A stretch of DNA of 64,000 nt, taken from positions 17,494,518 through 17,558,517 of the forward strand of contig NC_087377.1 in assembly GCF_963675165.1 (NCBI RefSeq), written 5' to 3'. Under the pieces are notes generated by a model. That model was given only the letters and a program-made list of their open reading frames with translations, had not been told where the DNA came from and made no database searches. This document shows, in pieces, positions 46-30,762 of this stretch (positions are counted from its first letter, which is position 1; each line of letters opens with the position of its first letter). The DNA comes from Halichondria panicea (taxonomy: Eukaryota; Porifera; Demospongiae; Suberitida; Halichondriidae). Both the position numbers and the translations under genes were made by a program.

Positions 46-3000
46 CTCGCTGGCCACAGCAGTCTCTACTCCTGACAGGAACACCACGTAACCAAGGAGC
101 AAAGAAATAGACAGGTTGAGATGAATGAAGTTATGAACCTTGGTCAGTAGCTCTTTTCTAAACATCAACAGCACAGTAAGGTTTTATACATGTATAAAGC
201 TATTATAATTATAATAGTCCTTCAATAATTACCTCAATGTCAAGAAATAGAGGATAGACAACAGAAGAAAGAAGATGGAGATGGAACAACCAACATAAGT
301 CACCACTGATAGAGCAAACCTGATCTCTGGAGTTGTGTCCTACAAAAGACCAAGCATAAATAAGTAAATAAGTATTTGCTGCACGAGGCTCACATTCAGT
401 GCTCCAGTGACATCCATTAGAACAGCAAATGCTGTGAAATGACTGCTCTCACAGACAATATTATATACTCTCATTTGCTTGTCTTCATCCATACTGACTG
501 TAGTCACACCTTCTGTGGACCATGTGCTGTTGGCTGCATCACTGACAAAATAACGATAATTGTGGTAATTAAAGGTGGACAACAATAAAAGACATGAGCG
601 CTCACCTAGAAACACTCCAAAATACACATTTTGCATTTTCGGCTACTTCATTCAGAGAACTGCACACACAAGCATGAATTAGTGTTGCTTGTAAGTCCAA
701 CTACCTTTTGGGTGGTGAAATTGAAGGTTGCCTGTGCCTGAGAGTTAGTTAACTTCACATTGGAGAAGACTTGACTAGAAATAACCTGTGATACTGGTCT
801 GGTTGTGTTCCTGTATATATAAGCATACAATTAATGAGACTGAGCAGAACATGCCTTAGTATACTGCATGTTGATAAAATACATTTCAAGGTTGGTTTTT
901 GGAAGAAAATCCTCCAAGTTGGAAAACAGAATGTTGACTGCTATAACATTCCCATCTGAAAATTGAGACAGACATATCAGACATAATATATGGATATACA
1001 ATATTTTGGTTACCACCAAAGTATGAAATACCTAGAGCGCCTCTCTCCATAAGAAGAGCAGCTGGTATCACAGTTTGGGCTGAGCCTGTTTCTTCACTGA
1101 GATTGACAACTTCAGGAAAGATAATGTCATCCAGACTAGTGGTGTCAACTTCAATTGCAGCTAGCACTGGACGATAAATGCAAATAATTATACTAGCTTC
1201 AAATCAACTATCTAGTAAATGGTGAAGTATGCATACCGATGTTTTGTCTCTCAAGTGTGATCTCCGTCACGTTTCCTGTATCCACAGCTTCACTCCTCAG
1301 TGCCAATGACACATACTGACCATATAACTCTGCGTTCAACAGCAGTTGCTGACTCTCAGCAGTAGAATCCTGAGAGTATAATTATTTGCAGTTAATTATC
1401 TATATCTGTATCTGTTCTATAATATCATTATACCATTTGCAATCTTTCCCATCCTTCTGTATTCCTCTTGTCCAGAACATTGTTGAGAATGTTTATAACT
1501 TCCTGCAAGACACAATTATTTAAACAACAAAAGGAACTTAACTTATAGTCTTACTTCACTAAGATTGAGAGAAGACATGGGACTAGCAATCTCAACGTTT
1601 TGAACTAGGTAATTCACACTTGACTTGACGATCGTATTAGTAGTGCTGAGGTCTTGGGGGAATATGGTGGAGTCTCCTGTTGCATTTACACTAGTAGCCT
1701 CCGCAAGAGAAACAAGAAGGTTGTCAACTTTGTTCTGAGATGTATTGTTCTGAGATGCATTTCTAGAAAATAGTTCATTTGCCTAAATGGAGAATAGAAA
1801 ACTAGTGATGATGAAAGATCGTCATGACGATATCATGGGCTTTTAAAGAGAAGAGGGCATGCAATTCAGGCTATTCTCTCAAACTTCATCTGATTGATCT
1901 TGACGATACAGACATTATAATATCAGTATACGTCACAGTGCATGTATTTGTGTAAAGTACTACAGTAACTACAGATTCAGTCTCACCCTGTCATTAAGTG
2001 AGCTGATTACTTCCCTAGTGCAGTTATCAATGTTCACTGCTTCCCAGACACCACCCAGTGTACAGAAACGAGTCGCAGTACCTATAAATGCATGCACATC
2101 AACACACAGTCACATGGAATGATACAGTGATACCTAAAGTTATTCCATTTCCATTTTGTGGGCATTGCTGGGAATATAAAAAGCCAGCCACAGTGGCAGG
2201 GAATACAAGCCCCCATACAGAATCCTCTTCAGCTTCACACTGAACCACGCCTATAGAGATAAACCACAATTGAAGCAAAAACGTTTTCCATTCAGTTGCT
2301 ACGACCGTAAACGAGTATTAGCTAGTTGGAAATTTATATGCTTGACAATGTTTTCCAAGGCTGCATATTCCACGACTATATGCAATGTCATTGGAGCATT
2401 GTCATTTTCATTGAGAACATTCACTCTAATGCTTGCAAAACGGGGGTGGAGGGGGTGGAGGGGGTGAAGGGGGGTGGAGGGTGGGGGGGGGTGACATTGT
2501 CAGTGTAGCTTTTACTGTCATTGTGTAAGTCTGAGTTGTGGAAGCTATATTATACATGAATCAGGAGCGTATAAGTGAGTGACTTTCTGTTTAAACATGA
2601 ATAAAGAATATGGGTTACCAGCAACTTTTTTGCATAAGCTCACGTTCACAAATTGCTGCTTCTCCATCAAAAACACCAGTAGTGCTGCTACCATCTCCAG
2701 TGCAAGTCCTTGTGTTGTTACCAACCAGAACAAACCCAGCGTTACAACTGTGGCTAGCCATGGCATTAAAAGCATAGTTGCCGTTTTCATCAGAAGTAGA
2801 ACATCTGTATGTCACAAAGCCATTGGTAGAAGCAGTCAAGGGAGGACAGGTTATAGCTATAGTGAAATGAATCTGAAGCAGTAAATAATATTCATGAATA
2901 TATATAGATATACGTTAAAGCATGGGTTAACTGTAATGTTTTGTGTAAGCTTACGTTCACAAATTGCTGCTTCTCCATCAAAAACACCAGTAGTGCTGCT

Positions 3001-5044
3001 ACCATCTCCAGTGCAAGTCCTTGTGTTGTTACCAACCAGAACAAACCCAGTGTCACAACTGTGGTTAGTCATGGCATTGAAAGCATAGTTGCCGTTTTCA
3101 TCAGAAGTAGAACTGTCTGTCACAGAGCCGTTGGTAGGAGCAGTCAAGGAAGGACAGGTTATAGCTATAGTGAAATAAAGCAAATGGATCAGTATCTATT
3201 GGAGCAGTAAATGCATGACATTCATGAATAAAGCTATATATTAAAGATGTGTTAACGATAATGTTTTGAGTAAGCTTACGTTTACAAATTGCTGCTTCTC
3301 CATCAAAAACACCAGTAGTGCTGCTACCATCTCCAGTGCAAGTCCTTGTGTTGTTACCAACCAGACCAAACCCAGTGTCACAACTGTGGTTAGCCATGGT
3401 ATTGAAAGCATAGTTGCCGTTTTCATCAGAAGTAGAACTACTGTATGTCACAGAGCCATTGGTAGGAGCAGTCAAGGGAGGACAGGTTATAGCTATGGTG
3501 AAAAATGAAGCAAATGGATCAGTATAATTTTGACCTTCTATTTAAACACTCAACTTACCGGTACAGACAACTTCATCAGTTTCAGACAATGAAGCCACAA
3601 ATCCATTCAAGCAGCTACAGTTGAACTGTTCCCTGTTATTCAAACAAATAGAATTTTGACCACAGTTGCATTGTATGGGAGATAATCTCATGCCTCCAGG
3701 GTAACCATAAGAATTGTAAAAGTCGAATCCATACACTGAAACACCTAGAACAGCTGAGCTATTTTGATGGCGGATAGAATGAGCTCCAGTAGACAAACTT
3801 GTTCTACTTATGTGGCCACAAATCTCTCCACTTGAACAGACAACATTCCTCCAGCCAGTAACAATGGAATTGTCTAATAATATTTGTCCAGTTTGAAAAA
3901 ACTCAGAAGAAACATATACCGTGACATAGTTGGATGCGAAAAGAGCAAACGTTTCGACCAAATAATTATTTGTAAACTGCTCAATTGGAGGGATTATCAT
4001 CATGAATGGGTCTCCCACGTGATTACTACCCCTACCATACGCATACTGTACGACCAGTACTGGAGAAGTGGATTCAATACTACAGAAACTGTTAATAGGG
4101 ATTTCAAATTGTCTGAAGCTCCCTCCACTCTGCAACTGGAATTCACTGACTGATACGTTAGTGTTGCAGTTCACAGCTACACTTGCTGCTCGGGCACTAA
4201 GAACACGAATACGTTCACCAGAAGATCTACCCTCGAGAGATGCTACAAGAAATTTTGAGCCCCATGTCACAGTCGGAGGCACTTGTTCAACCAGGTGGTC
4301 ACAATCGAGTACAACTTGAGGAACTCTAGCACAATCAGATCCACTAAACACAGACAAAGGTTTGGAGCTAGTTATTCTTGTTCCTGTGAGATCATTACCA
4401 CTTTCAATCTGATAAGTTTCCATACTATTCAGTGTTATTGTTGAGGAGTTGAATTTGACAACAGTTTCATTTTCACAAGCCACCAACAAAATCACACTAG
4501 GAAAGTCACTATTAAAGGTGTCATAGGAGATTCCATAATATTCGTATTCATCAACTGCCATTTTAGAACATGGTAACGCTAAATAAGCATCTGTAGTATA
4601 ATGACGATAAGACATTCCATACAAATTGATGTTTCCGTCGGCTTCAACAAGGATCCCCTTGTTCCTTTCATTAACAGATAATACCTCAAAACTGGATGGA
4701 ACGTTTACCCTAGTTGAAGAGTTAGAAACATTCCCACTGATATTAATTGGAGTGACTGTGAAATTAACAGCACTTGACTCTGGGTTTGTGATAAACAATA
4801 ACAACTCGACTGTTGATTGACCATGATTTCTTGGGAAACCAACCACGAATTTTTTGCCAGCACTTGACGAGATCTCATCTAGGATTAATGAACAATTCAA
4901 GGAATACATGAATAATAGTTATATATATTATATAGACTACAAGAATTCAGTCCTACCTGTAACTTGGGCATCACAAGATGGAGCAAATGTGATGATGACT
5001 ATTGTCAATGTCAAAGTAGATCTAGCAATTCTGTAGCTGATCAT
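46..5044 (-). CDS. Gene 1: adhesion GPCR (IgGFP-binding, EGF, 3 CCP, HRM, GAIN/GPS, 7TM), 3' end outside window
   Basis: Adhesion-class receptor with its 5' end in the window. Exons I read by GT-AG boundaries and phase: 4957-5044 (signal peptide, starts [10 protein letters not shown]), 3559-4878 (IgGFP-binding-like domain with [19 protein letters not shown] and [16 protein letters not shown], then a Cys-rich EGF), 3280-3492, 2955-3164 and 2644-2856 (one Sushi/CCP each, phase 1-1), 2134-2250 and 1987-2081 (HRM), 1555-1782, 1434-1502, 1237-1369, 1032-1166, 883-955 and 705-810 (GAIN), 606-659 and 394-541 (GPS), 233-339 (TM1), 46-157 (TM2). TM3-TM7 lie beyond base 1. The GPS exon lacks 2 bp relative to both paralogues, which gives a stop just after CVQFSE, before the GPS. 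If real, the product is a secreted ectodomain. Family assignment is strong; functionality is uncertain. Confidence 0.85.
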
Positions 5045-7317
5045 TATTAATTTTTAGCAACTGACTGAATTTAGCCTGTATCTATTTCGTGAGGAAAAAC
5101 GATATATTGATGTTTAGAGCTAGCCTAACTATTTCCATGGACTCCACAGTTTGTCAGATACAAATCTTGGTCTATAGCAGATCAAGGAACAGTTTGGTTA
5201 AATATCGGTCCTCAAACTGAGAACATATATTTTGCTCGTAGATAAACTTTTCTGGTTCAGGTGTCCAAACTTTCAAGGTTGAGTCACATCAGAGATGTCC
5301 TTTGTCTTTGCACTTGATCCAGAGATATAAACAGTCTTAAAGGTATCGGAAGATCAAGAAGATGAATCTGATTAATAGGATAACTCAGTACAATAAACAA
5401 ATGAATCTTATCATTAATAGACCTAATTAAGCTGTTACGTTATTACGTATTCGTACTTAGAAAAGTATATGCTTCTAAAATCATGATAATTACGATTTCT
5501 TACTTTTAGTTTAAAAAGATATTTCAATTTTCTATTATTAATCGATACTTGAGAGAGTCACCCGCAACAATAGCGTAAAGCACGCCAGTTTCAAAAAAAA
5601 TTTTGCAGAGAAAAAAATTTTTTTATGTGTCGACCATTTACCGTTGTGGTGAAGATAAAAATGCATATTTTAGCAACTGGTTGATCAACAGATTTAGTTC
5701 TATTCAGTGAGGCAAAAATGCTCACTATAGCCATGCAGGCTAAATCTCTGAAATCAAGCCCCTCCCCTAGATTTACTATAACCCCCCCTAGATCTATTTA
5801 ACCCCCCCCCCGTAGTGGGTGCTATTAATTGAGAATCACAGCCCCGTAGATGCAGTTTTAGAGTCCCCTGTCAAGAGGAATGAATGAAAATGACACATTA
5901 CACTCTATATACACATTTTCTCATGTACATTGTATATACATTGTACAAACATGATTTTTACAAGTGATGGCAACAAATGTGACATAGCAACGAGTGAGAC
6001 TGTTTAAATACAACAGCTAGCACCTTCTACTCGACTGACTAAGTATATAAGTAAGTAAATAACATCCTTGGAAAGCATTTTCTCAAAGAAAAACTCAAAA
6101 ACGTCTCACTCCGATCCATGCCTATATTATTACAATTGAGCGCCAAGTAAATTATGGAATAATTATTTGTTGCTGCATGGCTATACAGTATACCATGCAC
6201 TGTCACAAGGTTTTGCCCCAATTGTGGATGCATGATAACTGCACGAATTGCAACACCGTATACGTACTGGTTACTGTTATACGTAGATACCACTATTGCA
6301 GCACTGTACCGAGTTAGTGTTATACGTAGATACCACTATATTGGCTATAATTATCAGAGTTAGTGGTATCTATGTTATTGGCTATAATTATCACCAAGAG
6401 TTCATTAGGAAGAGTATGCAACTCCAATAGACTGTGCACAAAAGGCATTCCGTCTGACCTACCACAGATGCTCACTATTGTAACGGCAACTAGTAGGAAA
6501 GGCAATGAATAAATTAGTAACTATGTTATTCATTGCCTCTCCTACTACTGGCACTTAATTAAATAGTGATGATTATCTTTGTCACTATTATGACTTCTAT
6601 GGTTTTAAGTGGGAGTTGTGTACTCTTAGTCCTAGAGTGACTCTTGTTCCTTGATTATAGGCATGTCTACATCTGTAGCTCTCTTTGTGTCGGACTTGGA
6701 GGCCATATCTGTAGCTCTCTTTGTGTCAGACTCTGGATTGCTATATTTGGTCTAGTTGTTCGCCTAACGGTTATAAAAGCAAAACTCGGCTTGTGATCAA
6801 GGCTAGTATATTTGATCAAAATGCTGAAACAGGTATATACTGATATAAGCAAAACAGTATACTATTTTTGTCTGCTTTCTACTCTATCAGTGTAGGCTAC
6901 TGATTTTGTGTGTGTTAAATTGGTTTGTGCAAAGTCATAAAAATTTAATTGAATTCAACATGATTGTGCATGTGTAGTGATCTTTACCAAATTTAATTAT
7001 CAATGGTCTCGATTCAAGGCCAATTGAGGCTACTGATTTAAATTTTAACATCACACTAAGTCTTGGCTATATATAATATTATAGTAATAATGTGTATTAA
7101 TGTGTGCACGGAGATGAGTATAATGCACTCACTGCGCTCATGCGTTACGTAAGCCTCAAGCATTACAATAACTTCGAACTTATTGCACACTTAAAAAGCC
7201 TGACATTTAAGGTACAGTCACATGACTGCATTTAAAGAATGTCATTGGTAGTAGATCACATGATCAGCATTACATTAACTTCTCCATGTATGAACCTGTG
7301 ATTGTACCTTGATAACT
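5045..7317. other. 5' flank of gene 1, no gene seen
   Basis: No coding exon recognised. The stretch is homologous to the 5' flanks of gene 2 (from 16853) and gene 4 (from 30763), sharing for example the motif gatacttgagag near 5549. It contains polyA/T and polyC runs (5590-5625, 5785-5815) and local direct repeats of a block beginning ttatacgtagatacc near 6276 and 6327. Promoter elements for gene 1 probably lie at the high-coordinate side of 5045, but I cannot identify a specific one. Confidence 0.6.
6662..6740 (+). repeat. Short tandem repeat, about 36-40 bp unit, 2 copies
   Basis: Repeated unit containing tctgtagctctctttgtgtc and ggacttggaggccatat. The same unit occurs with more copies in the duplicated flanks at about 18220-18370 and 32157-32270. 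Confidence 0.6.
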
Positions 7318-8117
7318 TCTAAGAAAACATCGCGCTCATTGAAGGCTCCAACTCTACTTCTAAATGGTTATGTACTGCAGCAGGTTTCTAACTACAAGTA
7401 TTTAGGAATTACCATATCGGCTGACTTGAGCTGGCACACTCACATCAATACGATTTGTAATAAAACAAGGAAGTTGATAGGTCTCCTACATCGCAGGTTC
7501 TCTGGGAATTCTTCTTCAACAACACTGTTAAAGTTGTATACATCGTTCGTGAGATCACATCTGGAATACGCATCCTCTGTATGGAACCCATTTCACAAGT
7601 GTGAAATAAACAATTTAGAAAAAGTCCAGAGATTTGCTATGAGAGTCTGTCTGAAGAAATGGAATTTGAAAAGTGAAGAATTGCTCACCTTTACCAGGCT
7701 TCCTTCTCTGCAGCTGAGGCGCCTTGCTGCGGTGCTATGCCACCTTTTCAAAATACTACACAATCTAACTGACTTCCCAAACAACCCAGCAACCAAGAGA
7801 AATATGACTTACAGTAGTAGAACTGTTAACTGTTTTACTCTGGTCCCCTACCAATGTAGAACATCCTTTTACAAATTCTCATTTTTTCCGCATGCAATCA
7901 CAATATGGAATAGGCTGGTTAGCCACAAGGACTTTACTTTAGTAGACTGTACTAGTATAAGTTCATTTAAGTCACATCTGTATTCACATCTAGTTGACAT
8001 GTTGTAACTATTAAAACGTATGTTATAGGACTCACTTCACCCTAGCTTTGTAGCTATTTGTGTATCCTTGCAATTAATTGCTAAATCTTTCATAAAAAAA
8101 AAAAGATAAAAAAAACT
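7318..8117 (+). mobile_element. 5'-truncated non-LTR retrotransposon (RT C-terminal part)
   Basis: The open frame through 8007 encodes the C-terminal end of a LINE reverse-transcriptase ORF2. Recognisable features are the YKYLGITISADLSW block followed by HTHI, then the conserved thumb/C-terminal region (SHLEYASSVWNP, LEKVQRFAMR). This pattern is typical of Jockey/CR1-type elements in animals. An A-rich tail (8092-8116) follows the stop. The duplicated flank near 32831-32850 has the uninterrupted site (cttgataactgcttctcag), so both ends are defined to within a few bases. The endonuclease and palm domains are missing, so this is a dead 5' truncation. The exact clade is not determinable from this fragment. 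Confidence 0.85.
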
Positions 8118-8377
8118 GCTTCTCAGAAATGAAACCATACAGAAACTAGGGGCTACAATATCATCGTTAACATTAATTTTGTTTACTATAATTATATCTG
8201 TACAGAATTGTCTATTGAATAATGTGCCTGAGGAAATAAGTTGATTTGACTGCAACTTTATGTTTCGTTTTGCCGTCTGGGATAAGATAATCATTACACA
8301 AAATTTAACTTTATTTCCTCACTTGTGCATAAGCTTCATTAGACTCCACTTGAATGTCTTGTGCTCTTGTGTTGCAG

Positions 8378-8640
8378 TCGCTGTGGTTACATCTCAAGCC
8401 AAGAGCTCTGCAAAGCTATTGGAGGGATTAAACCAAGGTTTGCCTAAACTATAGGGATTGGCAAAGTGTCAGGGAGCACCCTCTCCTCGCATATACGAAA
8501 GATGGAGCTGAAAGAAACGGATGATCGATCTTCAGAGAGTTGCTCGTGTGCTGGGAGGAAAGAAACAAAGAAGGGAACAAAGATGGCTGCTGCTCTGGAG
8601 AAAAACTGTTAAGACTGTTAGCAGTGTCACAGTAGGTGAT
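8378..8640 (+). pseudogene. Degraded copy of CTU1-like terminal exon
   Basis: It aligns by eye with the better-preserved copy at 33265-33544. The reading CGYISSQELCKA is kept, then an 8-bp loss removes the second CxxC region and shifts the frame. A further 2-bp gain (ctatag against ctag) follows near GLPKL. No upstream CTU1 exons are present nearby. It is a duplicated 3' fragment carried along with the receptor flank. CTU1 identification is from memory of the family C-terminus (Zn-binding CGY..C..C then [16 protein letters not shown]). Confidence 0.55.
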
Positions 8641-8856
8641 AGCAAACACCTGCTGGACTTTTAAATTATGTGTGTCAATGTTTCTTTCCACGTACATTAT
8701 TTATCCATTAATCTACATGCCAAATAATATTTATTATTAATGATTTTCGTCAATTTCTGCTACCTATAACCTTGCCTGGTTCATGTATATACAGATTTCT
8801 GATACAATTAAGCAATTGCAAGTTCCCATGCACCTAGCCTTGTTCCCATGCACCTA

Positions 8857-8952
8857 TAGCCTTGTTCCCAAGCCGATCTGTCCGTTAGGTCGCCTCCTAG
8901 TTATCAACCTATAGCATCATTTTAGAGACAAATCGGCCTGGGAACGAGGCTA
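8857..8952. mobile_element. Foldback MITE
   Basis: The ends form an imperfect inverted repeat (tagccttgttcccaagccga at the left, its approximate complement ending gggaacgaggcta at the right). A second copy lies at 18810-18927 with longer, better matched arms. It has no coding capacity. Confidence 0.65.
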
Positions 8953-9470
8953 GCTCCCACTGACTCAGTTTTGACCCCATTGGTAACCATTGGTAACCCA
9001 CACCCAATATACCATAATTATAGTGAAGCCCCTCCCAATTTCCACATATTAAATGGTTGGAATGCACATGCAGGGCCGGGATTCTTGATGTTTTCGGAGA
9101 ACTGCAAATCAGGACATGATGATGTTTTTTGTGAGGGGAAATTTCTATATGTATAGCTATATATAAGTCCACGGATGTGATTGGACCAATTATATCAGAA
9201 ATGGATTAGATTTAGAGATGAATGTGAGGATTTGGAGTGGCGGAAATATACACTGACCGGATTTTAGTTTCTCGGTAAAAGTTTGGTGGTTTGGCGCAGA
9301 TCGTTGCCATTCGATTGTGCATGTTTGTATGTTCACAACGTCATAATGCGGTGAGAATATAAATAGTATACATGCAGATCGATCTATACAATAACAAAAA
9401 ACAATAAATAACATTCCGCTAGTATAGCGGGCAGTATATAGTGTATATGTATACCTTATCAATAATTATG

Positions 9471-15400: not shown

Positions 15401-16852
15401 CAGACAACTTCATCAGTTTCAGACAATGAAGCCACAAATTCATTCAAGCAGCTACAGTTGAACTGTTCCCTGTTATTCAAACAAATAGAATTTTGACCAC
15501 AGTTGCATTGTATGGGAGATAATCTCATGCCTCCAGGGTAACCATAAGAATTTGTTGTGTCGAATCCATACACTGAAACACCTAGAATGGCTGAGCTGTT
15601 TTGATGGCGGATAGAATGAGCTCCAGTAGACACACTCGTTCTACTTATATGGCCACAAATCTCTCCACTTGAACAGACAACATTCCTCCAGCCAGTAACA
15701 ATGGAATTGTCCAATAATATTTGTTCAGTTTGAAAAAACTCAGAAGAAACATACACCGTGACATAGTTGGATCCGCGGAAAAGAAGAAACGCTTCAATAA
15801 CATAATTATTTGTAAACTGCTCAATTGGAGGGATTATCATCATGAATGGGTCTCCTACGCCATCACTCTCCCTACCATACGCATACTGTGTGACCAGTAC
15901 TGGAGAAGTGGATTCAATGCTACAGAAACTGTTAATAGGGATTTCAAATTCTCTGAAGCTCCCTCCACTCTGCAACTGGAATTCACTGACTGATACGTTA
16001 GTGTTACAGTTCACAGCTACACTTGCTGCTCGGGCACTAAGAACACGAATACGTTCACCAGAAGATCTACCATCGAGAGATGCTACGAGGAATTTTGACC
16101 CCCATGTCACAGTCGGAGGTACTTGTTCAACCAGGTGGTCACAGTAGTTTATATCTTGAGGAACAGAAGCACAATCAGATCCACTAAACACAGACAAAGG
16201 TTTGGAGCTAGTTATTCTTGTTCCTGTGAGATCATGATCACTTGCAATCTGATATGTTTCCATACTATTTAGTGTTATTGTTGAGGAATTGAATTTGACA
16301 ACAGTTTCATTTTCACAAGCCACAAACAAAATCACATTAGGAAAAATATAGATGTCATAGGAGATTCCATAATATTCGTATTCATCAACTGCCATTTTAG
16401 AACATGGTAACGCTAAATAAGCATCTGCACTATATGGTTCAAAAGATAGCCCATACACGTTAACTTTCCCGTCGGCTTCAACAAGGATCCCCTTGTTCCT
16501 TTCATTAACAGATAATACCTCAAAACTGGGTGGAACGTTTACACTAGTTGAAGAGTTAGAAACATTCCCACTGATATTAATTGGAGTGACTCTGAAATTA
16601 ACAGCACTTGACTCCGGGTTTGTGATAAACAAAAACAACTCTATGTGTACTACTTGACCAGTATTTATTGGGAAAAAAAACCACGAATTTTTTGCCAGCA
16701 CTTGACGAGATCTCATCTAGGATTAATGGTTATGCATAATAGTTAGACTACAAGAATTCAGTCCTACCTGTAATTTGAGCATCACAAGATGGAGCAAATG
16801 TGATCACGATTATTGCCAATGCCAAAGTAGAACTAGCAATTCTGTAGCTCAT
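9471..16852 (-). CDS. Gene 2: adhesion GPCR, full-length tandem paralogue with two frameshifts
   Basis: Same plan as gene 1, about 1,440 residues if frames are ignored. Exons: 16768-16852 (signal peptide), 15396-16716 (IgGFP-binding, EGF), 15117-15329, 14813-15019 and 14501-14713 (three CCPs, the middle one two codons shorter), 14013-14129 and 13866-13960 (HRM), 13433-13660, 13315-13383, 13122-13254, 12913-13047, 12775-12847 and 12607-12712 (GAIN), 12506-12561 and 12294-12441 (GPS), then 12133-12239, 11950-12061, 11459-11613, 11335-11401, 10882-10957, 10198-10301, 9963-10131 and 9826-9903 (7TM), 9471-9719 (tail). Two single-base gains break the frame: one in a T run near 16675 at the start of the IgGFP exon, and one in a G run near 11545 in the TM3 exon (MLCEGI becomes MLCEGN and is then out of frame). 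Both are in homopolymers, so they may be assembly errors. Two MITEs sit in its introns. Confidence 0.85.
10310..10710. mobile_element. MITE with CAGGGGCGTAGG termini in gene 2 intron
   Basis: A 401-bp insertion with terminal inverted repeats (caggggcgtagg at the left, cctacgcccctg at the right). It is flanked by TACAG direct repeats at 10305-10309 and 10711-10715. The gene 3 intron has the empty site (cacctgtataggtat near 20362). No transposase is encoded. The termini resemble hAT-type CAGGG ends, but the 5-bp duplication does not fit the usual 8 bp, so the family is left open. Confidence 0.8.
11121..11276. mobile_element. Small PIF/Harbinger-like MITE with internal palindrome
   Basis: Termini tcagtggcgta and tacaccactga are inverted repeats, flanked by TTA on both sides (11118-11120, 11277-11279), as expected for TWA target duplications. 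A perfect 24-bp palindrome lies at 11206-11229. It sits in the intron between the TM4 and TM5 exons of gene 2 and is absent from the gene 3 counterpart. Confidence 0.7.
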
Positions 16853-18809: not shown

Positions 18810-18927
18810 TAGCCTTGTTCCCATGCAGGCCGATTTATCTCTAAAATAACGCTAGGTCGCCTCCTATATATATAGTTATCAATCTATAGCGTTATTGTAG
18901 AGACAAATCGGCCTGGGAGCGAGGCTA
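18810..18927. mobile_element. Foldback MITE, second copy
   Basis: Arms of roughly 45 bp (left beginning tagccttgttcccatgc, right ending gggagcgaggcta) pair almost along their full length. Same family as 8857-8952. Confidence 0.7.
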
Positions 18928-19458
18928 GCTCCCACTGACTCAGTTTTGACCCCATTGGTAACCCACATCCTAGTGAAGCCCCTCCCCTTTTCCACATAAT
19001 GGTCGGAATGTACATGCAGAGAATTCTTGATGTTTTCGGAGAACTGCAAATTAGGACATGCATGATGATGTGTTTTGTGAGGGGAAATTCTATATGTATA
19101 GCTATATAATTATAATAATTAATAATTATTCTACGTTATAGGAATTAGAAATGGATTAGATAAGTGAGGATTTGAAGTGGCGGAAATATATACACTGACC
19201 ATATTTTAGTTTCTCGGCTAAAAGTTTGGTGGTATGGCGCAGATCGTTGCCATTAGATTGTGCATGTTTGTACGTCATAATCATTAAAAGGTGATGGTGT
19301 ATACAGATCGATCTACAGGTCTACTCACTAATATATTATGTACAATGACAACAAACAGTAAAGAACATTCCGCTATATATAGTATAGCGGCAGTATAAAT
19401 AAAATAGTATATGTATACTTTAATAATAATTATATATCATTCAGTTTCTATAATAATA

Positions 19459-22400
19459 CTATATTAGTAGCCGTGCTTCAAGGCTTTCCTGTGAGTTAGA
19501 AAAACCTTTTATCCAATTAAAGGTCGTAGTTTTGTGCCACTCTTCATCATTTTCAAGCAATCCAGCAATGTACGACTTCTCTGAGCCAGACTCAGATGCA
19601 GCAGTCTCATCGACTTTAACGACTTCATTTTGCATGGTACTATGATCGTGTTCGCTGAATCTAGAGTGACTTGGCTTGAGCTGAACACCATCACTCATCG
19701 TATTCTTGCTCTGCACATAATATATATTTCACAGTCGGGCACTATATAAACAGTCTGATTTCTATTGAATTTAATATACAATGGAAACAAGCATAAATTA
19801 TATACTCTCCCAATAATAATTATATGCATATATAATTATACACACTTAATTATAATAATAGGCGATCCACCTGTCTATTGACATACCACATTGTTTTTTC
19901 CTGAGGCAGAAGTTGATACAGCGCTGTCCATTCTCTTTCTGCACTGCTTTAAGAAGTTTGTGACCTAAAAATTAGAAGTGATCTAAATGCTAAAAAATGA
20001 AACACGCACTTTTTCACTCCTGAGCACATGGAAGATGAATACGAACAAGCCTTGCAGTGAGTTAAAGATAGAGAACAACCATGCAAACACACTGGTGCTG
20101 TCGTCGACTAAGAGTAGTAGTCCAAACACCCAAGTCAGCCCGAGCAATGGAAGGAGAATTATAGTGGCCTTGAAGAGTTTTCTGCATACATATATATACA
20201 AGCATTAATTGGGATCAACGTGTTACTGAATAGCACGAATAAGAGTTGACACACTCACGAGAATAATTGTAACTGAGATTTCTTTTCTTCACTTCGTTGC
20301 ATGGCTGACTTTCTCTGTTTATAGACGCTGCGCAAAGCAGCCAAGAGGAAGAATACATTCACCTGTATAGGTATATACTAGTCGTCATAATTATAAAGGT
20401 AGGCTTAAAATAAACTGAGTACATGCATGCAAATGTGTACTCAAAAACTGATTTGCAAACCAATGCATGCATTTGCAAGCTATATAGAGATCTCACCAGA
20501 ACAACTAGTAGCATTGGTACAACAAATGCCCATATGGCTCCTTTATCACCGGTAACAGCAATCCAACAACTGAATGTACAAACATTAACAAATAAATAAA
20601 TATTGTCAGTTGTAAAGGTTTGTAATAAGTACGAATTTTTATATTGGGGGAAAGTACGAATTCTTTATTGGGGGAAGCGTTATATGTTGTAACATGCAAG
20701 CCATGCAGTTATTATAGAATTTGGAGATGCAGTTTCTATACTAAATTCACAATATAAAACTTACTAATCTTTTGTGCCATACTGGTCATGAATTGGTCCA
20801 GCAGATATAGCCACTGGTATCACTGGAACAACTGCAAGAAACATATATACCCCAGAACTTGATGCCATGATTATAGTCATCACCGCACATGCATACATAA
20901 ATGGATGAACCCTCGAGGGGTATAAGTACTTCATTCGAAAGATTGTCTTCTTTATTGTGCTCAATTAGATACATGTACTTAGTGTAAGCATCGTATATCT
21001 TTATTTTACCCCATCCAATAATAAAGAATATCCACCATTTCTTGGATATTTGGTTGAAGACAAGCACCAACATAAGATAGAGCATGATTCCCTCACACAG
21101 CATCCAAAAGAACACAGTAGTGAACAGGTAGTGAAGGAGAATAGCCACAAACGCACACGCTATCTGCGAACATTAAATGATCAATATAGAGTATCATATA
21201 CAGACTCTCGCTATAATCTGGCTCTCTGAATTATGGTCACCTCGATATACCGGTCGTTTTGTATATACTAACATAGCTATAGATATCTGCGATCTTATTA
21301 TTGCGATGCCATAAGCACTCGCAAAAATCGCAAATGGAGTAGTTACTATTATGTATATAAGGCTTAATTGCTGGCATGCATGTTGTCCGTTAAAGTTTTG
21401 AGGTAAACTGTACCAGCTATACAATATACAGCAAAATACGTTCAAGTATACCTTTTTGGCCACAACAGTCTTTACTCCTATTAACAGGAACACCACGTAA
21501 CCAAGGAGCAAAGAAATAGACAGGTTGAGATGGATGAAGTTATGAACCTTGGTCAGCAGCTCCTTTCTAAACATCAACAGCACAACAAGGTTTTATGCAT
21601 GAATGCAAAGTTTCAATAATTACCTCAATGTCAAGAAATAGACGATAGACAACAGAAGAAAGAAGATGGAGATGGAACAACCAACATAAGTCACCACTGA
21701 TAGAGCATCCCTGATCTCTGGAGTTGTGTCCTACAGAAGACCAAGAATAATAAGTAAATTAGTTCGCTGCATGAGGCTCACATTCAGTGCTCCATAGACA
21801 TCCATTAGAACAGCAAATGCTGTGAAATGACTGCTCTTACAGACAATATTATATACTCTCATTTGCTCGTCTTCATCCACACTGACTGTAATCACACCTT
21901 CCGTGGACCACGTGCTGTTGGCCGCATCACTGACAAAATAACGATAAGTGTGGTAATTAAAGCTGGACAACAATAAAGGACAATCATGCAGCTCACCTAG
22001 AAACACTCCAAAATACACATTTTGCATTTTTGGCTACTTCATCCTCAGAGAACTGCACACACAAACATGAATTAGTGTTGCTTGTAAGTCCAACTACCTT
22101 TTGGGTGGTGAAATTGAAGGTTGCCTGTGCCTGAGAGTTAGTTAACTTCAAATTGGAGAAGACTTGACTAGAAATAACTTGTGATACTGGTCTGGTCGTG
22201 TTCCTGTGTATATAAGCATACAATGAAACCAAGCAGAACATGACTTAGTACTAGCTGTTGATAATAATTATACATTTCAAGGTTGGTTTTTGGAAGAAAA
22301 TCTTCCAAGTTGGAAAATAGAATGTTGACTGCTACAACATTCCCTTCTGAAAATTGAGACAGACATGGATAAACAGATTTTGGTTACCAACAAAGTTTAC

Positions 22401-25400
22401 GAAATACCTAGAGCGCCTCTCTCCATAAGAAGAGCAGCTGATATGGCACTTTGGGCTGAGCCTGTTTCTTCACTGACTTTGACAACTTCAGGAAAGATAA
22501 TATCATCCACACTAGTGGGGTCAACTTCCATTGCAGATAGAACTGGTCGGTAAATGCAATACCATCATGCATCACCCATACAACATAATAGCAATACAAA
22601 TGGTGAAGTACGCATACCGATGTTTTGTCTCTCAAGTGTGACCTCCGTCACGTTGCCTGTATCCACAGCTTCACTCCTCAGTGCCAATGACACATACTGA
22701 CCATATAACTCTGCACTCAACAGCAATTGCTGACTCTCAGCAGAAGAATCCTGAAGTATATTTGCATGATTGTCAGGTAATTATCTGTATCTGTATTTAT
22801 ACCTCTTGTAATCTTTCCCATCCTTCTGTATTCCTCTCGTCCAGAACATTGTTGAGAACGTTCATAACTTCCTGCAAGGCACTAATAAAAGGGATGTTTT
22901 ATTTAACTTGTATATAGTCTTACTTCACTAAAATTGAGAGAAGACATGGGGCTAGCAGTCTCAACGTTTTGAATGAGGTAATTCACACTTGACTTGACGA
23001 TCGTATTAGTAGTGCTGAGGTCTTGGGGAAATATGGTGGAGTCTCCTGTTGTATTTACACTAGTAGCCTCCGCAAGAGAAACAAGAAGGTTGTCAACTTC
23101 GCTCTGAGATGCATTGTTCTGAGATGCATTTCTAGAAAATAGTTCATTTGCCTGAATGGGGAATAGAAAACTAGAGCTGATGAAAAATCGTCATGAATAA
23201 TATCATGGGCTTTTAAAGAGAAGAGGGCATGCAACTCAGGCTATTCTCTCAAACTTCCTCTGACTGATCTTGACGATAATTATAGACATTATAATATCAG
23301 TATACGTCACAGTGCATGTATTCGTGTAAAGTACTACAGTAACTGCATGCAGATTCAGTCTCACCCTGTCATTAAGTGAACTGATTACTTCGCTAGTGCA
23401 GTTATCAATATTCACTGCTTCCCAGACACCACCCAGTGTACAGAAACGAGTCGCAGTACCTATACATGCACATCAACACACAGTCACTTGGAATGATATT
23501 CAATGATACCTAAAGTTGTTCCATTTCCATTTTGTGGGCATTGCTGGGAATAGGAAAAGCCAGCCACAGTGGCAGGGAAGACAAGCCCCCATACAGAATC
23601 ACGTTCAGCTTCACAAACCACGCCTATAGAGAAACCATAAAAGCAAAAAACGTTTCCATTCATTTGCTATGACTATAAACGAGTATTAGTTGGGCAGAGT
23701 TCAACCAATAGTGTTTATGTATTCGGGTCGGTTGGAATCCGCCCAACTAAACGAGTATGAGGATGCAATCTCAGCCTCGCTTGTGTAAAGATTACACCCG
23801 AACTGTATAGTCTGAACACATCAATTTTAGCAGGTAGACATTTTAGCCATTAATACTGCAATGTGATTGGCTAAAGGTAGTAATGTACTTATACTTAGAC
23901 AACGAGTGCTGCAAGCTGCGCTGTGCTAATGCCTCTCACCATGTTATGCTTTCGCTCAAAACCTCAGTAATGTTACTATAGATAGAAGAGAAGAGGGATT
24001 GGAAACAGAAATGCCCTTGAAGTACTATCCGTATTTCCCCGCTTTTTTAATCGAGGCTTATTTCTAACGTGGGACTTTAAACATGAATAATTCATGAGAA
24101 TTGTTTTTGCTGTCTATGAAAAGTCCACGAGCAGTTTTACTGCTAAGGCCACTCCAAATGAGACTGTAGTTTCCCGTCAGAGACTCCAGTAAATTATAAG
24201 CGGATGTGAGCAGTATTATCATTATTCATTACTATGAGTATCATTATAAATGTGTTGCGTCATCAATGAATTTAAATTAATCACCCACAAAAATGTAACC
24301 ATACACACATACAACCACAAACAGTAAACAAAGAACAAGAAAAAAAGTAATTTCAATATTTCATTGGATATTTAGAAAAATAATGGCCATAATGCGGTAG
24401 CTAAAGCAGGAAGCGCGAGTTGGACGGGAAACTACAGTCTCATTTGGAGTGGCCTAAACATCAACTTCAAATCACAGTACACCACTTAGTGACACAACCT
24501 TATAGCTAGACTAACACAAGGTGAAACATGGATTGCTTCAGAGCTACTATCTAAACTTCATTGTAGAAGCATCACGTGCGTGAACCAGGACCTCATGAAA
24601 AGAAGAAGAAATTGTATGATCTCACACACTGAATGCATATGCGCAGAAGAAGGGGTGTATCCGCAATAGATTAAAGTTTGCAATGGCTGCTGGCGCGTGG
24701 CACTCACAAAAAGCAAACACTTTAGTGCAAGGCTAACTCATAAAGTTGAATAGAAAGTTTGTGTGAACAGATGATACTACCAAAGATTCTGAAGAGACTG
24801 CAACAGCCTTCACTGTGAGTAGAATGAGCCATAACTAGCTTATAGAGCACAAAGCTTTAGGTTGCAAATCCGGCCACGAATCATAATCGAAGTGAATGTG
24901 CTGTTAGTTTTCGTCGCATTGCAACTGTTGGAGCAGTTACAGCTGGAATACACACACACAGCCAGCCAGCAATAAGACACACAACTAATGGGAAGAGTAC
25001 AATACTTACTCACCAGTGACAGTCACATTAAAGGTGGTGGTGTTCATTCCAACAGGATTGACTGCTGTCACAGAATACAGGCCACTCTCACTGGGTAGTT
25101 GAACATGGTCTAGAGTGAATGTTGTGGTGGCTGGTGGAGAGGTGGTGCTGGTGTTTGTGATGGTGAGGACTCCTGTCCTCCCAGTGACGGCTGTAGCTGG
25201 AACACCATCAATGAACCAGGTGATCTCTGTCAGTGGCAGGTTGAAGTCAGTGATGGTTACAGTCAAGGTGAGAGTAGAACCAACTACAACTTCAATGTCT
25301 ACATCAACAGGGAGAGTGGGGCCAACTGTATGCAAGAAGAGATACATTTGTACTGCAATGATTACTGACTATAACACACTAACCAGCTTGAACGATGATA

Positions 25401-27531
25401 CTGAAAGAAGAGTCCATTCCGAAACGATTAGTTGCATTACATCGGTACATCCCATAGTTATCGGTAGTGGCTATTAAACTGAAGTTTCCACCAGTTGTGT
25501 CATTCCCAGTGTAAACAACTTCTACAGTACTGGCTACATCAAACCGCTCCCAAACAATTTCTATAGGAATGTCTCCAGTTACAACACACACAAGGTCCAC
25601 AGCGGTGTTCAGTAGCACAGGATCCGGCTGAATGGTGGTCACAACAGGAGGGTCTGCATGGTTGAGAGATATTAGTGCAGTTAGGCATACGTAGTTATAT
25701 GTCATACCTCCCAGCTCTATTGTCACAGTGTTACTGGAATAATACGTCTACCACAGATTAGTATACTGCATACAACTATATAGAGCACTGGATTATTGTG
25801 TGTAACTATGATCAGTGGCCATCAACAATAGTTATTATTGTCCAATAAAAGCAGATTCAGATATCTCAGCAGAATATTGAAGGAAAGAAAAAAGGATATG
25901 AACATCACTTCAACCACGAGAGGATCTATGCACTACTGACTCCACCGTCCACTGCTAATACTAGAGGAATACAGTACTTTTACACATAATTATGCATGAG
26001 CGCATACATGAAGGAACCACATTAAATGGTCTTGAAACAATCAGTATAATCTATTTAAACACTCAACTTACGGTTACAGACGAGTTCATCAGTTCCAGAC
26101 AACGACGCCACAAATCCATTCAAGCAGGTACAGTTGAACTGTCCCATGTTATTCAAACAAATATAATTTTGACCACAGTTGCATTGTATGGGAGATAATC
26201 TCATGCCTCCAGGGTAACCATAAGAACTGTAAGAGCCAAATCCATACACTGAAACACCTAGAACAGCTGAGCTGTTTTGATGGCGGATAGAATGAACTCC
26301 AGTAGACACACTTGTTCTACTTATGTGGCCACAAATCACTCCACTTGAACAGACAACATTTCTCCAGCCAGTAACAATGAAATTGTCTAATAATATTTGT
26401 GCAGTTTGAAAAAACTCGGAAGAAACATACACCGTGACATAGTTGGATACAAAAAGAGGAAACGCTTCGACAAAATAATTATTTGTAAACTGCTCAATTG
26501 GAGGGATTATCATCATGAATGGGACTCCATAAGCATACTGTGCCACCAGTACTGGAGAAGTGGATTCAATGCTACAGAAACTGTTAATAGGGATTTCAAA
26601 TTCTCTGAAGCTCCTTCCACTCTGTAACTGGAATTCACTGACTGATACAACAGTGTTGCAGTTCACAGCTACACTTGCTGCTCGGGCACTAAGAACACGA
26701 ATACGTTCACCAGAAGATCTACCCCCAAGAGATGCCACGAGAAATTTTGATCCCCATGATACAGTCGGAGGTACTTGTTCAACCAGGTGGTCACAGCCGC
26801 CTATACCTTGAGGTACTTGAGTACAATCAGATCCACTAAACACAGACAAAGGTTTGGAGCTAGTTATTCTTGTTCCTGTGAGATCATTATCACTTTCAAT
26901 CTGATATGTTTCCATACTATTTAGTGTTATTGTTGAGGAATCGAATTTGACAACAGTTTCATTTTCACAAGCCACCAACAAAATCACACTAGGAAAGTTA
27001 CTACTAATGGTGTCATAAGAGATTCCATAATATTCGTATTCATCAACTTCCATTTTAGAACATGGTAACGCTAAATAAGCATCTGTAGTACTTGAATAAA
27101 AAGATATCCCATACAAATTGATGTTTCCGTCAGTTTCAACACGGATCCCCTTGTTCCTTTCATTAACAGATAATACCTCAAAACTGGATGGAACGTTTAC
27201 ACTAGTTGAAGAGGTAGAAACGGTCCCACTGATATTAATTGGAGAGACTGTGAAATTAACAGCACTTGACTCTGGGTTTGTGATATACAAAAACAACTCG
27301 GGCTTGACTGGTCGAAGTTGAGCAGTATTACTTGGGAAACCAACCACAAATTTCTTGCCAGCACTTGATGAGGTCTCATCTAGGATTAATGAACAATTCA
27401 AGGTTTACATGCATAATAATTATAGACTACAAGAATTCAGTCCTAACTGTAATTTGTGCATTACAAGGTGAAGAAAATGTGATTATGATTATTATCAATG
27501 CAAAAGTAGATCTAGCAATTCTGTAGCTCAT
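19459..27531 (-). CDS. Gene 3: adhesion GPCR with two Ig domains in place of CCPs
   Basis: The body appears frame-intact, about 1,415 residues. Exons: 27447-27531 (signal peptide, [10 protein letters not shown]), 26072-27379 (IgGFP-binding, EGF), 25384-25653 and 25014-25325 (two Ig-like domains, second with [10 protein letters not shown]), 23510-23623 and 23365-23459 (HRM), 22924-23151, 22803-22871, 22618-22750, 22408-22542, 22274-22346 and 22098-22203 (GAIN), 21997-22052 and 21782-21929 (GPS with [12 protein letters not shown]), 21624-21730, 21452-21566, 21010-21163, 20765-20831, 20497-20569, 20259-20362, 20010-20181 and 19887-19964 (7TM, including [16 protein letters not shown] and [10 protein letters not shown]), 19459-19710 (cytoplasmic tail). 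Phases agree across all junctions except the first: the exon 1 donor that is GTAGGA in paralogues reads TTAGGA here. An in-frame alternative donor/acceptor pair exists (see findings). Signalling through G proteins or adhesion ligands is a family expectation, not visible here. Confidence 0.88.
23687..23748. mobile_element. 62-bp foldback insertion with 10-bp target duplication
   Basis: Arms tagttgggcagagttcaacc and ggttggaatccgcccaact are inverted repeats. Flanked by the direct repeat aaacgagtat at 23677-23686 and 23749-23758. Genes 1 and 2 carry a single aaacgagtat at the matching intron position, which serves as the empty site. Confidence 0.75.
24147..24454. mobile_element. MITE with 32-bp perfect terminal inverted repeats
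   Basis: Terminal repeats begin ggccactccaaatgagactg and are exact complements over about 32 bp. They are flanked by TAA on both sides (24144-24146, 24455-24457). The 3-bp TWA target and short non-coding body fit a PIF/Harbinger-type non-autonomous element. It lies in the gene 3 intron between the Ig and HRM exons. Confidence 0.82.
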
Positions 27532-29298
27532 AGTAATTACAGAGTTTAGTCTCTAGATCTATTCAGTGAGGCAAAACGGATATAATATTGATGTTTAGAG
27601 CTAGCCTAACTATAATATTATTGCCATGGACTCCACAGTTAGTTATACAAATCTTGGTCTATAGCAGATCAAGGAACAGTTTGGGCAAATATCAATCCTC
27701 AAACTGAGAAAATATTATAACTAATGAGCCCATAGCTTTCTGGGGTGGGCATTTTACTTTCGTCAGGCACAAACTTACTCTAGCTCAGCTTTGCAAGGTT
27801 TACTGACTCTGCAATTGCTCCACCATGTACTGTACTCTATCTAGATTGAGCACAGTGTGTGTCAGCTCTCTCTGTGTAGTTCTGGCAAAAACGGAATCAA
27901 TTACACTCGACGAAAATCGAATAGTTGGACAGTTTTTTCTAGTGATCACAGCTCCGACTGATCTATGCTGGAAGCAACGCTGGTTAAGTCCCATAGCCAC
28001 CTGTTGGTGTTTCTGTCTATAGCACTGACCAGGAGCAGAAGAGGGGATGGAGCATCTTACTAGTAGACTATATGCATAGTATTGCAGATTTTTTTATTTT
28101 ACAAATTTGCAGAGGTAAAAAAATAGCTATAAAATGTAAGCTAATACTAATCTGAGACCTGATACTATACAGACAGAGAACAGTATACAGTTAATACACG
28201 AAAGAGTACGGAGAGATTACAATTTAAGTTTGTAGCGAAATCCCATCCACATTAAAATTCAGGTTATTCCAGGCTGAGGTATAGTAGATCTATCTATAGG
28301 AAAAAAGAAGACTGAAACTTAGCAAACTGGACAGATAATTGTTGGGTGTTCTGGTGTCTGTGCGGGTATTGGTGGTATACTTGCTTGATAGTGGAGAATC
28401 AAAGATACTGAGACTATTCACTCTAATGCTATAGGGGTGGTGACATTATCATATATATATACTAGCTCTTACTGTCAATGTGTAAGTCTGAGTTGTCTCA
28501 AAGTCTAGCTAGATATGATGTGACAAAATTAATAGTTGACCAGTATCAGGCTCAAGTAAATTTAATGTCATTATTATGTATTGTAGTTTTTTTGTACAAA
28601 AATCAAAGGAAAAACTATAATTATGCTAACAAATGCCATAGACTAGGATCTACAACTGTAGTAACCACAGACCGTGCTCTATTATTCTGTGGTTGGTATT
28701 TTTGGAACAGTTTGGTAGTTAGAGCATGGCTGGGGTAGTTAGAGCACGATTGCTGCTAAGTGATTCTATAAGCTTCTAGCAATACTATCTTACTAACAAA
28801 GGCTCTATTCTCGAGTAAAGGCTAGTTTGCTTACCAGTACGTTGAAGGCCATTGCAGTCTCTCCAGAATCAGGAATAGCAAAATATTTTCGTAGAAGGTT
28901 GCTATTCTACTTAGTAGACTAGAGCCAATAGCTATTGGTAGCTGCAAGAAGCTAAAAACTACAAACCAGTTAATGCACTGTTTTACGCTCGTGCTCTATG
29001 CATTATTGGCCTCGCGGAAGTTCTCGAAGCTCATGTAGCTCGAGGCGAACTAGTACATGGAGGTTGTCAGGATGATCAGTGGCCATCAATAAAAGCAGAT
29101 TCAGATATCTCAGCAGAATATTGAGGGAAATCAAAAAGTCATCACTTCAACCACGAAAGGATGTGTGCACTACTCCACTGCCATTATTCGCAGGAATACA
29201 GTACTTTACACATATAATTATGTATGAACGCATACAGTCTTGAGTAGACTAGAAACAATCAGTATAATTATGACCTTCTATTTAAACACTCAACTTAC
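27532..29298. other. Region between gene 3 and gene 4 with receptor intron relics
   Basis: No exon. The stretch 28415-28500 (ttcactctaatgct ... tgtaagtctgagttgt) matches the intron between the last CCP and first HRM exons of gene 1 (about 2424-2537). About 29070-29280 matches gene 3 intron 2 (from about 25808). These are remnants of a once longer gene 4. Confidence 0.6.
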
Positions 29299-30762
29299 CG
29301 GTACAGACAACTTCATCTGTTTCAGACAATGAAGCCACAAATCCATTCAAGCAGCTACAGTTGAACTGTCCCATGTTATTCAAACAAATAGAATTTTGAC
29401 CACAGTTGCATTGTATGGGAGATAATCTCATGCCTCCAGGGTAACCATAAGAATTTGTTGCGTCGAATCCATACACTGAAACACCTAGAACAGCTGAGCT
29501 GTTTTGATGGCGGATAGAATGAGCTCCAGTAGACACATTCCTTCTACTTATGTGGCCACAAATCTCTCCACTTGAACAGAAAACATTCCTCCAGTCAGTA
29601 ACAATGGAATTATCTAATAATATTTGTTCAGGTTGAAAAAACTCAGAAGAAACATACACCGTGACATAGTTGGATACGCGGAAAAGAAGAAACGCTTCGA
29701 CCAAATAATTATTTGTAAACTGCTCAATTGAAGGGATTATCATCATGAATGGGTCTCCCACGCCATCACTATCCCTACCATATGCATACTGTGCGACCAG
29801 GACTGGAGAAGTGGATTCAATGCTACAGAAACTGTTAATAGGGATTTCAAATTCTCTGAAGCTCCCTCCACTCTGCAACTGGAATTCACTGACTGATACG
29901 TTAGTGTTGCAGTTCACAGTTACACTTGCTGCTCGGGCACTAAGAACACGAATACGTTCACCAGAAGATCTACCATCGAGAGATGCTACGAGGAATTTTG
30001 ACCCCCATGTCACAGTCGGAGGTACTTGTTCAACCAGGTGGTCACAGTAGTTTATATCTTGAGGAACACTAGCACACTCAGCTCCACTAAACACAGACAA
30101 AGGTTTGGAGCTTGTTATTCTTGTTCCTGTGAGATCATGATCACTTTCTATCTGATATGTTTCCATACTATTTAGTGTTATTGTTGAGGAATTGAATTTG
30201 ACAAGTGTTCCATTTTCACAAGCCACAAACAAAATCACATTAGGAAAAATAAAAATGTCATAGGAGATTCCATAATATTCGTATTCATCAACTGCCATTT
30301 TATAACATGGTAACGCTAAATAAGCATCTGCAGAACTTGAAGGTAATAAGATATCCCATACAAATTGATGTTTCCGTCAGCTTCAACAAGGATCCCCTTG
30401 TTCCTTTCATTAACAGATAAAACCTCAAAACTGGATGGAACGTTTACCCTTGTTGAAGAGTTAGAAATGTTTCCACTGATATTAATTGGAGAGACTGTGA
30501 AATTAACAGCACTTGACTCTGGATTTGTGATAAACAATGACAACTCGATTCCTGAAATTGTATTCACCGCATTTCTTGGGAAACCGACAACGAATTTCTT
30601 GCCAGCAGTTGATGAGGTCTCATCTAGGATTTTAATGGAACATGCATAATAGTTAGACTACAAGAATTCAGTCCTACCTGTAATTTGAGCATCACAAGAT
30701 GTTGCAAATGTGATCACGATTATTGCCAATGCCAAAGTAGAACTAGCAATTCTGTAGCTCAT
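29299..30762 (-). pseudogene. Gene 4: truncated, frameshifted copy of the receptor N-terminus
   Basis: Keeps exon 1 (30678-30762, signal peptide, normal GTAGGA donor) and exon 2 (29299-30623, IgGFP-binding domain plus EGF, ending with a normal GTAAGT donor). A net 2-bp gain near 30340 (after NLYGIS) shifts the frame, with a stop shortly afterwards. The remainder reads on in another frame from [13 protein letters not shown]. No CCP, Ig, HRM, GAIN or 7TM exon follows. Sequence and 5' flank are closest to gene 2, while the intron downstream of exon 2 resembles gene 3, so it is a mosaic. A short secreted product is conceivable only if the frameshift is an assembly error. Confidence 0.82.

Follow-up and report, generated by a model that had tools for sequence, protein, structure and literature searches.

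Adhesion G protein-coupled receptors (GPCRs) are generally cleaved in the GAIN domain, can lose the N-terminal fragment and carry a tethered agonist; their canonical autoproteolysis motif is H-L-T/S, and the GPS usually has four cysteines. The diversified, recombining immune receptor families of invertebrates are organized in tandem arrays and combine a conserved framework with variable loops and recombination between copies. How animals without adaptive immunity distinguish microbes or foreign tissue is an open question, and sponges stand near the animal root. Here, we describe a window of 64,000 nucleotides from the sponge Halichondria panicea (G000:C1:17494518-17558517, the whole stretch analyzed; w denotes a position in it) with four gene copies, A to D, each with a head composed of an IgGFc_binding domain and an EGF-like domain, which in A, B and C lies ahead of an adhesion GPCR body. 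On balance, we consider it probable that these copies belong to a demosponge family of adhesion GPCR genes that is arranged in tandem, evolves by birth and death and encodes diversified surface-recognition receptors. New here are 27 paralogous heads with a conserved framework and variable loops, a gene (B) that looks like a patchwork, and a locus (L020) in which the head is joined to CCP repeats and probably to one membrane-spanning helix.

Among described systems, the adhesion GPCRs of Amphimedon queenslandica are similar in being sponge 7tm_2 receptors with GPS, HRM, Ig, EGF and fn3 in their ectodomains; the domains in the legend of Figure 4, which depicts a selection of receptors, differ in including neither IgGFc_binding nor CCP/Sushi (PMC4302439). 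Closer is the receptor repertoire of Halichondria panicea, where a transcriptome figure includes GPS-bearing GPCRs and its legend has IgGFc-binding, Calx-beta, Sushi, GAIN and HormR among the receptor domains (PMC8242945). The combination of IgGFc and a GPCR may already be drawn in that figure, and in the portions of the paper available to us we found no analysis of loops or tandem arrangement. An earlier note on this DNA, made from its letters alone, knew of no vertebrate adhesion GPCR with this N-terminus; a wider statement that the arrangement lacks precedent has to be softened in view of this legend. In our open-access literature search, which covered the accessible parts of the sources, we found no named IgGFc-7TM receptor (that one legend may bear on it) and, with hypervariability included among the queries, no account of variable loops or a patchwork; the term IgGFc was likewise not found in the accessible text of a choanoflagellate GPCR paper or of an adhesion-GPCR review.

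Gene architecture in the window

A profile search of the genome (131 Mb, 39 contigs) placed four IgGFc_binding matches in the window, all on the minus strand (w3728-4591, 15565-16425, 26241-27083 and 29468-30283). Gene B was modelled by hand, and a purpose-written spliced protein-to-DNA aligner was then applied to A, C, D and further loci. In A, B and C, the modules follow the same order along the minus strand: a signal peptide exon, a single 1.3-kb exon for IgGFc_binding and the EGF-like domain (the head), a slot of variable content, HRM (two exons), GAIN (six exons), GPS (two exons), 7tm_2 and a cytoplasmic tail. With the exception of exon 1 in C, all introns of these models are GT-AG with compatible phases at each junction, and the introns that follow the head exon and the slot exons are in phase 1. 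From HRM to tail, eight of the ten loci modelled on contig C1 (A, B, C, L005-L008 and L010; the ten also include L003 and L009) have 19 exons with the 18 intron phases 100011202020120200, while L003 (17 introns, tail unmatched) and L009 (19 introns, one extra) agree with the common phases over the introns shared. Because the heads in the window are 87-89% identical to that of A and the splice structure is common, the likeness of A to D is not due to chance.

In gene A, the signal peptide exon (w4957-5044, beginning ATG ATC AGC TAC, with a phase 1 donor GTAGGA) is followed by the head exon (w3559-4878, phase 1 on both sides), three CCP exons within w2644-3492 (3492-3280, 3164-2955 and 2856-2644), two HRM exons within w1987-2250 (2250-2134 and 2081-1987), six GAIN exons (w705-1782), the GPS exons within w394-659 (659-606 and 541-394, the latter encoding HFT and TAFAVLMD) and the first two 7TM exons (w46-339); the remainder lies left of the window, to about -2028. 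Gene B runs from its signal peptide exon (w16768-16852) through the head exon (w15396-16716), three CCP exons (w14501-15329), two HRM exons (w13866-14129), GAIN and GPS exons (w12294-13660) and 7tm_2 exons (w9963-12239) to a tail (w9471-9903) whose stop codon ends at w9471. Gene C has a signal peptide exon (w27448-27531), a head exon (w26072-27379), two Ig exons within w25014-25653 (25653-25384 and 25325-25014), two HRM exons (w23365-23623), GAIN and GPS exons (w21782-23151), 7tm_2 exons without a frameshift (w20010-21730) and tail exons (w19465-19964). Gene D comprises a signal peptide exon (w30678-30762) and a head exon (w29299-30623); gene C starts before any slot, HRM or 7TM that would belong to D. 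Thus, what the earlier note had read as an IgGFc-type ectodomain ahead of an adhesion GPCR body, in tandem and with phase-consistent exons, holds at the level of gene models A, B and C, apart from exon 1 of C. Its count of three tandem genes stands as three models in full order, to which the truncated head D has to be added; most of the 7TM of A lies left of the window, and none of the copies is intact as modelled. Two further apparent defects were dropped during modelling: loss of the start codon in A was withdrawn, as the letters show it intact, and a frameshift near the TM5-TM6 loop in A and C was removed by a better acceptor.

The profile search of spliced models that the note had proposed matched IgGFc_binding, GAIN, GPS and 7tm_2, as well as HRM below its curated cut-off. 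Model A (with one X at the break) gave Pfam matches to 7tm_2 (3.4e-56), IgGFc_binding (4.8e-53), Sushi (1e-17, three stretches), GAIN (2.9e-15), GPS (1.8e-7) and HRM (8.6e-5, 23.3 bits). The 7tm_2 bundle was also matched in C (5e-58), in L007 (1.9e-58) and in L002 on contig C4 (1.1e-48), IgGFc_binding was matched in L007 (4.9e-52), and model C has Ig_3/I-set in place of Sushi. Over these four models GAIN ranged from 2.9e-15 to 1.4e-17 and GPS from 3e-7 to 9.6e-11, and GAIN with GPS adjoins TM1. The layout of the secretin family (class B1), with HRM directly before the 7TM and no GAIN, is not what we find, since GAIN and GPS intervene. The EGF-like domain was assigned by eye from its cysteine pattern rather than from a Pfam match. 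A genome search for HRM gave seven matches, all on contig C5 and all above cut-off; the window has none, its HRM sequences each being divided between two exons.

The cleavage motif keeps its H and T, with Phe between them (HFT), in 10 of 10 bodies on C1, and the predicted agonist is TAFAVLMD in eight of these and TAFSVLMD in two. HLT is found in L002 and L011 on C4 and in the locus on C3. The C1, C4 and C3 copies lack the same two of the four usual GPS cysteines together; the C1:4.5 Mb locus keeps them.

The earlier note had also suggested a mucin-like ectodomain, which our results do not support. FCGBP, a mammalian mucus component, has an N-terminus homologous to bacterial proteins and continues into vWD-C8-TIL repeats (PMC9354016), whereas the sponge domain stands ahead of CCP/Ig-HRM-GAIN-7TM. 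Of the features of FCGBP and gel-forming mucins, the IgGFc_binding domain is present (A and L007, at the values given above), but a scan of models A and L007, of C beginning with the Ig slot and of L002 beginning with HRM gave no vWD-C8-TIL repeats at E<=0.01, nor any other mucin module. Bacterial IgGFc_binding-like proteins (34 loci, L041-L074) have a homologous domain, at most 36% identical to that of A in the alignment; they differ in being bacterial, where a GPCR body is not expected. Their hosts include Bacteroidota, Kapabacteria, Methylomicrobium and others.

Slot content and a sister array

The slot contains three CCP domains in A and B, two Ig domains in C, one CCP in L003 and L005 and two CCP in L006. 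With one CCP and two Ig queries, which may miss other modules, no match was obtained in the slot of L007-L010, L002, L011 or the C3 locus. At the C3 locus, fn3 was found in all three of the open reading frames (ORFs) tested between head and HRM, and one C5 locus has Calx-beta in two ORFs, below the curated cut-off.

Judging from the sequence of L020, at the start of an array at C1:14.98-15.12 Mb, a single-pass protein probably carries this kind of head as well. The head of L020 is identical to the B query at 351 of 457 aligned residues and is preceded by a similar signal peptide. It is followed by 14 CCP matches, one of which contains an internal stop, and then by an ORF with what is by eye a likely single membrane helix; Pfam confirmed Sushi in the one CCP ORF tested and gave nothing for the helix ORF. 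No 7tm_2 was seen among the matches listed for this IgGFc array, in which L020 is the one locus read downstream of its head.

Variation in the heads

We compared 32 IgGFc exons with that of A and used the 27 unbroken ones for alignment and dN/dS, dropping B, D, L008, L010 and L029 for breaks. In the alignment, long stretches with entropy close to zero alternate with short variable segments that contain insertions and deletions. The variable segments include residues 18-24, 88-93, 119-125, 188-191, 282-287, 309-314 and 385-388 of A. In ten segments chosen by entropy, eight of them interior, dN/dS was 0.95 (bootstrap 0.70-1.28), as against 0.30 (0.24-0.36) in the rest. As choosing loops by entropy is circular, the comparison was repeated on a partition taken from predicted structure. 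An AlphaFold2 prediction from the exon of A, the three other window copies and 30 bacterial relatives had a mean pLDDT of 83.4 and a pTM of 0.85. Of the 47 variable positions among the first 402 residues, 34 are outside predicted strands, compared to 153 of the 355 other positions (Fisher p 1.7e-4). On this partition, strands had a dN/dS of 0.29 (0.23-0.36), short coils one of 0.63 (0.42-0.89) and coils of >=6 residues one of 0.70 (0.47-1.00). These data are suggestive of loop variability concentrated outside the predicted strands, given that coils vary more in many proteins anyway. Over the ten C1 loci, broken ones included, dN/dS was 0.31 for the 7TM, 0.35 for GAIN, 0.38 for GPS, 0.46 for the IgGFc exon, 0.47 for HRM and 0.66 for the tail.

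A fold search of the PDB with the AlphaFold head model gave no match at E<=0.001, and a sequence search of solved structures gave NELL1 as its sole match, to the EGF region (E 0.35). Ten pattern matches in viral contigs included no relative.

Exchange between copies

Comparison of A and B in 200-column windows gave 96.5-100% identity, with introns counted, between the last CCP exon and the tail end. Exon 1, head and slot have 82-97%, and the last window, which is past the stop, has 88%. In the flank upstream of exon 1, B and D share 97.2-99.6% identity over five windows of 250 bases and 92.5% over the outermost one, while A and B can be aligned in only part of the windows, at <=95%. Within the head, B is nearer D (0.972, 0.964, 0.940) than A (0.920, 0.952, 0.911) over w16300-15551, nearer A (0.935, 0.908) than D (0.879, 0.900) over w16800-16301, and again nearer A (0.992) than D (0.974) over w15550-15301. 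By these window identities, B looks like a patchwork in which the flank and the mid-head resemble D and the body resembles A. Over the ten loci, head and body distances had an r of -0.10, and 3181 of 5000 permutations were as high.

The sponge family thus resembles the diversified immune receptor families of invertebrates in its tandem arrays, its framework, its variable loops and, by window identities, its recombination; it differs in that dN/dS is not >1, and it is described from one genome.

The join between head and body

We infer from the gene models that the IgGFc head and the HRM-GAIN-GPS-7TM body lie on one transcript. The gap between IgGFc and HRM is 215 bp in L002 and 203 bp in L011, both diverged C4 copies, and 450 bp in L009; no AATAAA or ATTAAA was found in those of L002 and L009. 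An in-frame ATG is absent from the open stretch before HRM in 7 of 12 copies (A, B, L005, L007, L010, L002 and L011), and in C and L007 this stretch is in another frame than in A, B and L003; because of the missing ATGs and this frame shift, it is not a conserved first exon. In L007, which is intact, a stop lies 7 codons upstream of the HRM exon. An alternative start before HRM, suggested by L003, was weakened as a candidate, since it is not conserved in comparisons of nine and then of twelve copies, though 5 of 12 have an in-frame ATG.

To quantify collinearity, we counted 7tm_2 matches on the same strand and <=25 kb downstream of IgGFc matches (150 of 164 7tm_2 matches were used) and rotated the 7tm_2 matches along their contigs in 2000 shifts. 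Any downstream 7tm_2 match makes a pair in this test, so that D is counted via the 7TM of C. Among the matches listed, 12 of 42 IgGFc clusters and 24 of 122 IgGFc matches were paired; the rotated controls had means of 0.9 clusters and 1.6 matches and maxima of 7 and 20, and 0 of 2000 reached the observed values. Two loci on C5 (6.31 and 6.49 Mb) repeat the order IgGFc, HRM, GPS, 7tm_2 on one strand.

Proposed mechanism and alternatives

In the mechanism that we propose, each gene would provide one outer recognition head, IgGFc_binding and EGF in one large exon, held out by an exchangeable, phase 1-flanked spacer slot (empty, CCP or Ig; fn3 or a weak Calx-beta in diverged loci) in front of a standard HRM-GAIN-GPS-7TM body. 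The head may bind a ligand, presumably one on a surface, through its variable loops, and binding or pull would act on GAIN-GPS; following putative cleavage, the tethered agonist TAFAVLMD or TAFSVLMD would engage the 7TM and lead to G protein signalling. Heads would have diversified by loop divergence and by recombination between copies. To our knowledge sponges have no IgG, so the Pfam name IgGFc_binding does not denote a function here: a domain named for binding IgG occurs in an animal without it. If the proposal is correct, it adds a domain to the list of adhesion-GPCR ectodomains, and a multi-copy, GPCR-wired family that recombines and varies one outer domain would be a concrete, testable candidate for recognition.

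As to the bacteria-binding ectodomain that the note had suggested, a recognition role is at most plausible in view of the variable loops and of published work on sponge immunity. In the accessible parts of the sources, an adhesion GPCR gene is upregulated after microbial signals in Aplysina aerophoba and GPCRs are downregulated in Dysidea avara (PMC6208332), and no GPCR appears among LPS-responsive genes in Halichondria panicea (PMC8242945). A more specific version is doubtful: recognition of self and non-self or of microbes via G proteins, with one IgGFc scaffold, about eight variable segments shuffled by recombination among tandem genes, and mounting on a 7TM or a single-pass CCP body, giving paired signalling and non-signalling receptors.

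Several observations weigh against a family of functional recognition receptors. The Phe that replaces Leu before the cleavage bond and the two missing GPS cysteines (C1) depart from the usual motif, and HRM scores 23.2-25.1 bits in four models (A, C, L007 and L002), all below the curated cut-off of 26.2. Loop dN/dS is not above 1 in any class, and all four window copies have a predicted disabling lesion. As to the join, an in-frame ATG precedes HRM in 5 of 12 copies (C, L003, L006, L008 and L009), with a strongly hydrophobic run after it in L003 and L009, so that these two possibly have a signal peptide of their own before HRM. Among the matches listed, 98 of 122 IgGFc matches have no 7tm_2 <=25 kb downstream, and the C4 7tm_2 matches 3581710 and 3593970 have no IgGFc upstream. 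The loci are non-independent owing to tandem duplication, and uncorrelated head and body distances fit exchange but also two independent genes.

An alternative role, which we think unlikely, is attachment to matrix or mucus: to sense adhesion, the heads would recognize matrix glycoproteins made by the sponge itself and not microbes or non-self. In favor of this role, FCGBP, in which the domain is known, is a mucus protein (PMC9354016), and the ligands of adhesion GPCRs, in the sources as far as accessible, include matrix proteins; however, copy-to-copy variability of loops on a conserved framework would be unusual for one fixed self ligand.

It is quite improbable that the window copies are simply relics, that is, pseudogenes of a GPCR family in which much of the variability is decay. 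A has lost 2 bp in the exon before the GPS (w659-606), giving TTC TCT GAA TGA; B has two +1 homopolymer frameshifts, an extra T in a T8 run near the start of the IgGFc exon and an extra G (G4) in the TM3 exon (w11613-11459); the exon 1 donor of C is TT instead of GT; and D has a frameshift in its head exon and no 3' half. Stops lie inside 15 of 122 IgGFc matches in the genome, and 5 of the 32 heads compared are broken, all as expected of relics. Some of these lesions, chiefly the two in B, may stem from sequencing or assembly error. On the other side, the dN/dS values of 0.31 in the 7TM and 0.30 in the head framework and the concentration of variability in loops do not fit decay, and 5 of the 10 C1 loci (L003, L005, L006, L007 and L009) are free of frameshifts and stops from signal peptide to the end of TM7. 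Beyond TM7, there is a GC donor in L005, the tails of L006 and L009 are broken and the tail of L003 is unmatched; L007 (C1:17597001-17606500), at a distance of about 38 kb from the window, has an open frame all the way from its signal peptide to a clean stop. A to D are therefore best described as probably decaying members of a family with open copies elsewhere.

Very unlikely, finally, is a pair of neighboring genes duplicated together, in which an IgGFc-CCP gene for a secreted or single-pass protein would stand before a distinct HRM-GAIN-7TM gene: L020, the two C4 7tm_2 matches, the ATGs before HRM (above all those of L003 and L009) and the uncorrelated distances are in its favor, but it is opposed by the 7 of 12 copies without such an ATG, the non-triplet shifts between copies, the stop in L007, the distances of 203-450 bp between head and HRM in three copies, the phase 1 introns flanking either side and the recurring order in the two C5 loci.

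Other features of the window

Between A and B, on the plus strand, a 237-codon ORF (w7294-8007) resembles by eye the end of a non-LTR retrotransposon reverse transcriptase and has no Pfam match at E<=0.01. No Rfam match at gathering scores was obtained in the window. A tandem array at w42626-45843 contains 7.1 copies of a 454-bp unit with 94% matches; on the minus strand, the one copy tested matches Calx-beta. Also on the minus strand, fn3 occurs in two stretches that resemble each other (w34000-40300 and w49600-54700) and lie downstream of Calx-beta exons, and the second has by eye protein-tyrosine-phosphatase exons on the same strand; together they are perhaps a duplicated receptor-type protein-tyrosine-phosphatase with a Calx-beta and fn3 ectodomain. 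In the genome at large, a pattern for the silicatein active-site motif had one match versus 0 for the reversed pattern; the fragment reads GDCGASYAFSAMGALEG in a cathepsin-like frame, and we take motif and fragment to be silicatein-like, presumably a demosponge mark.

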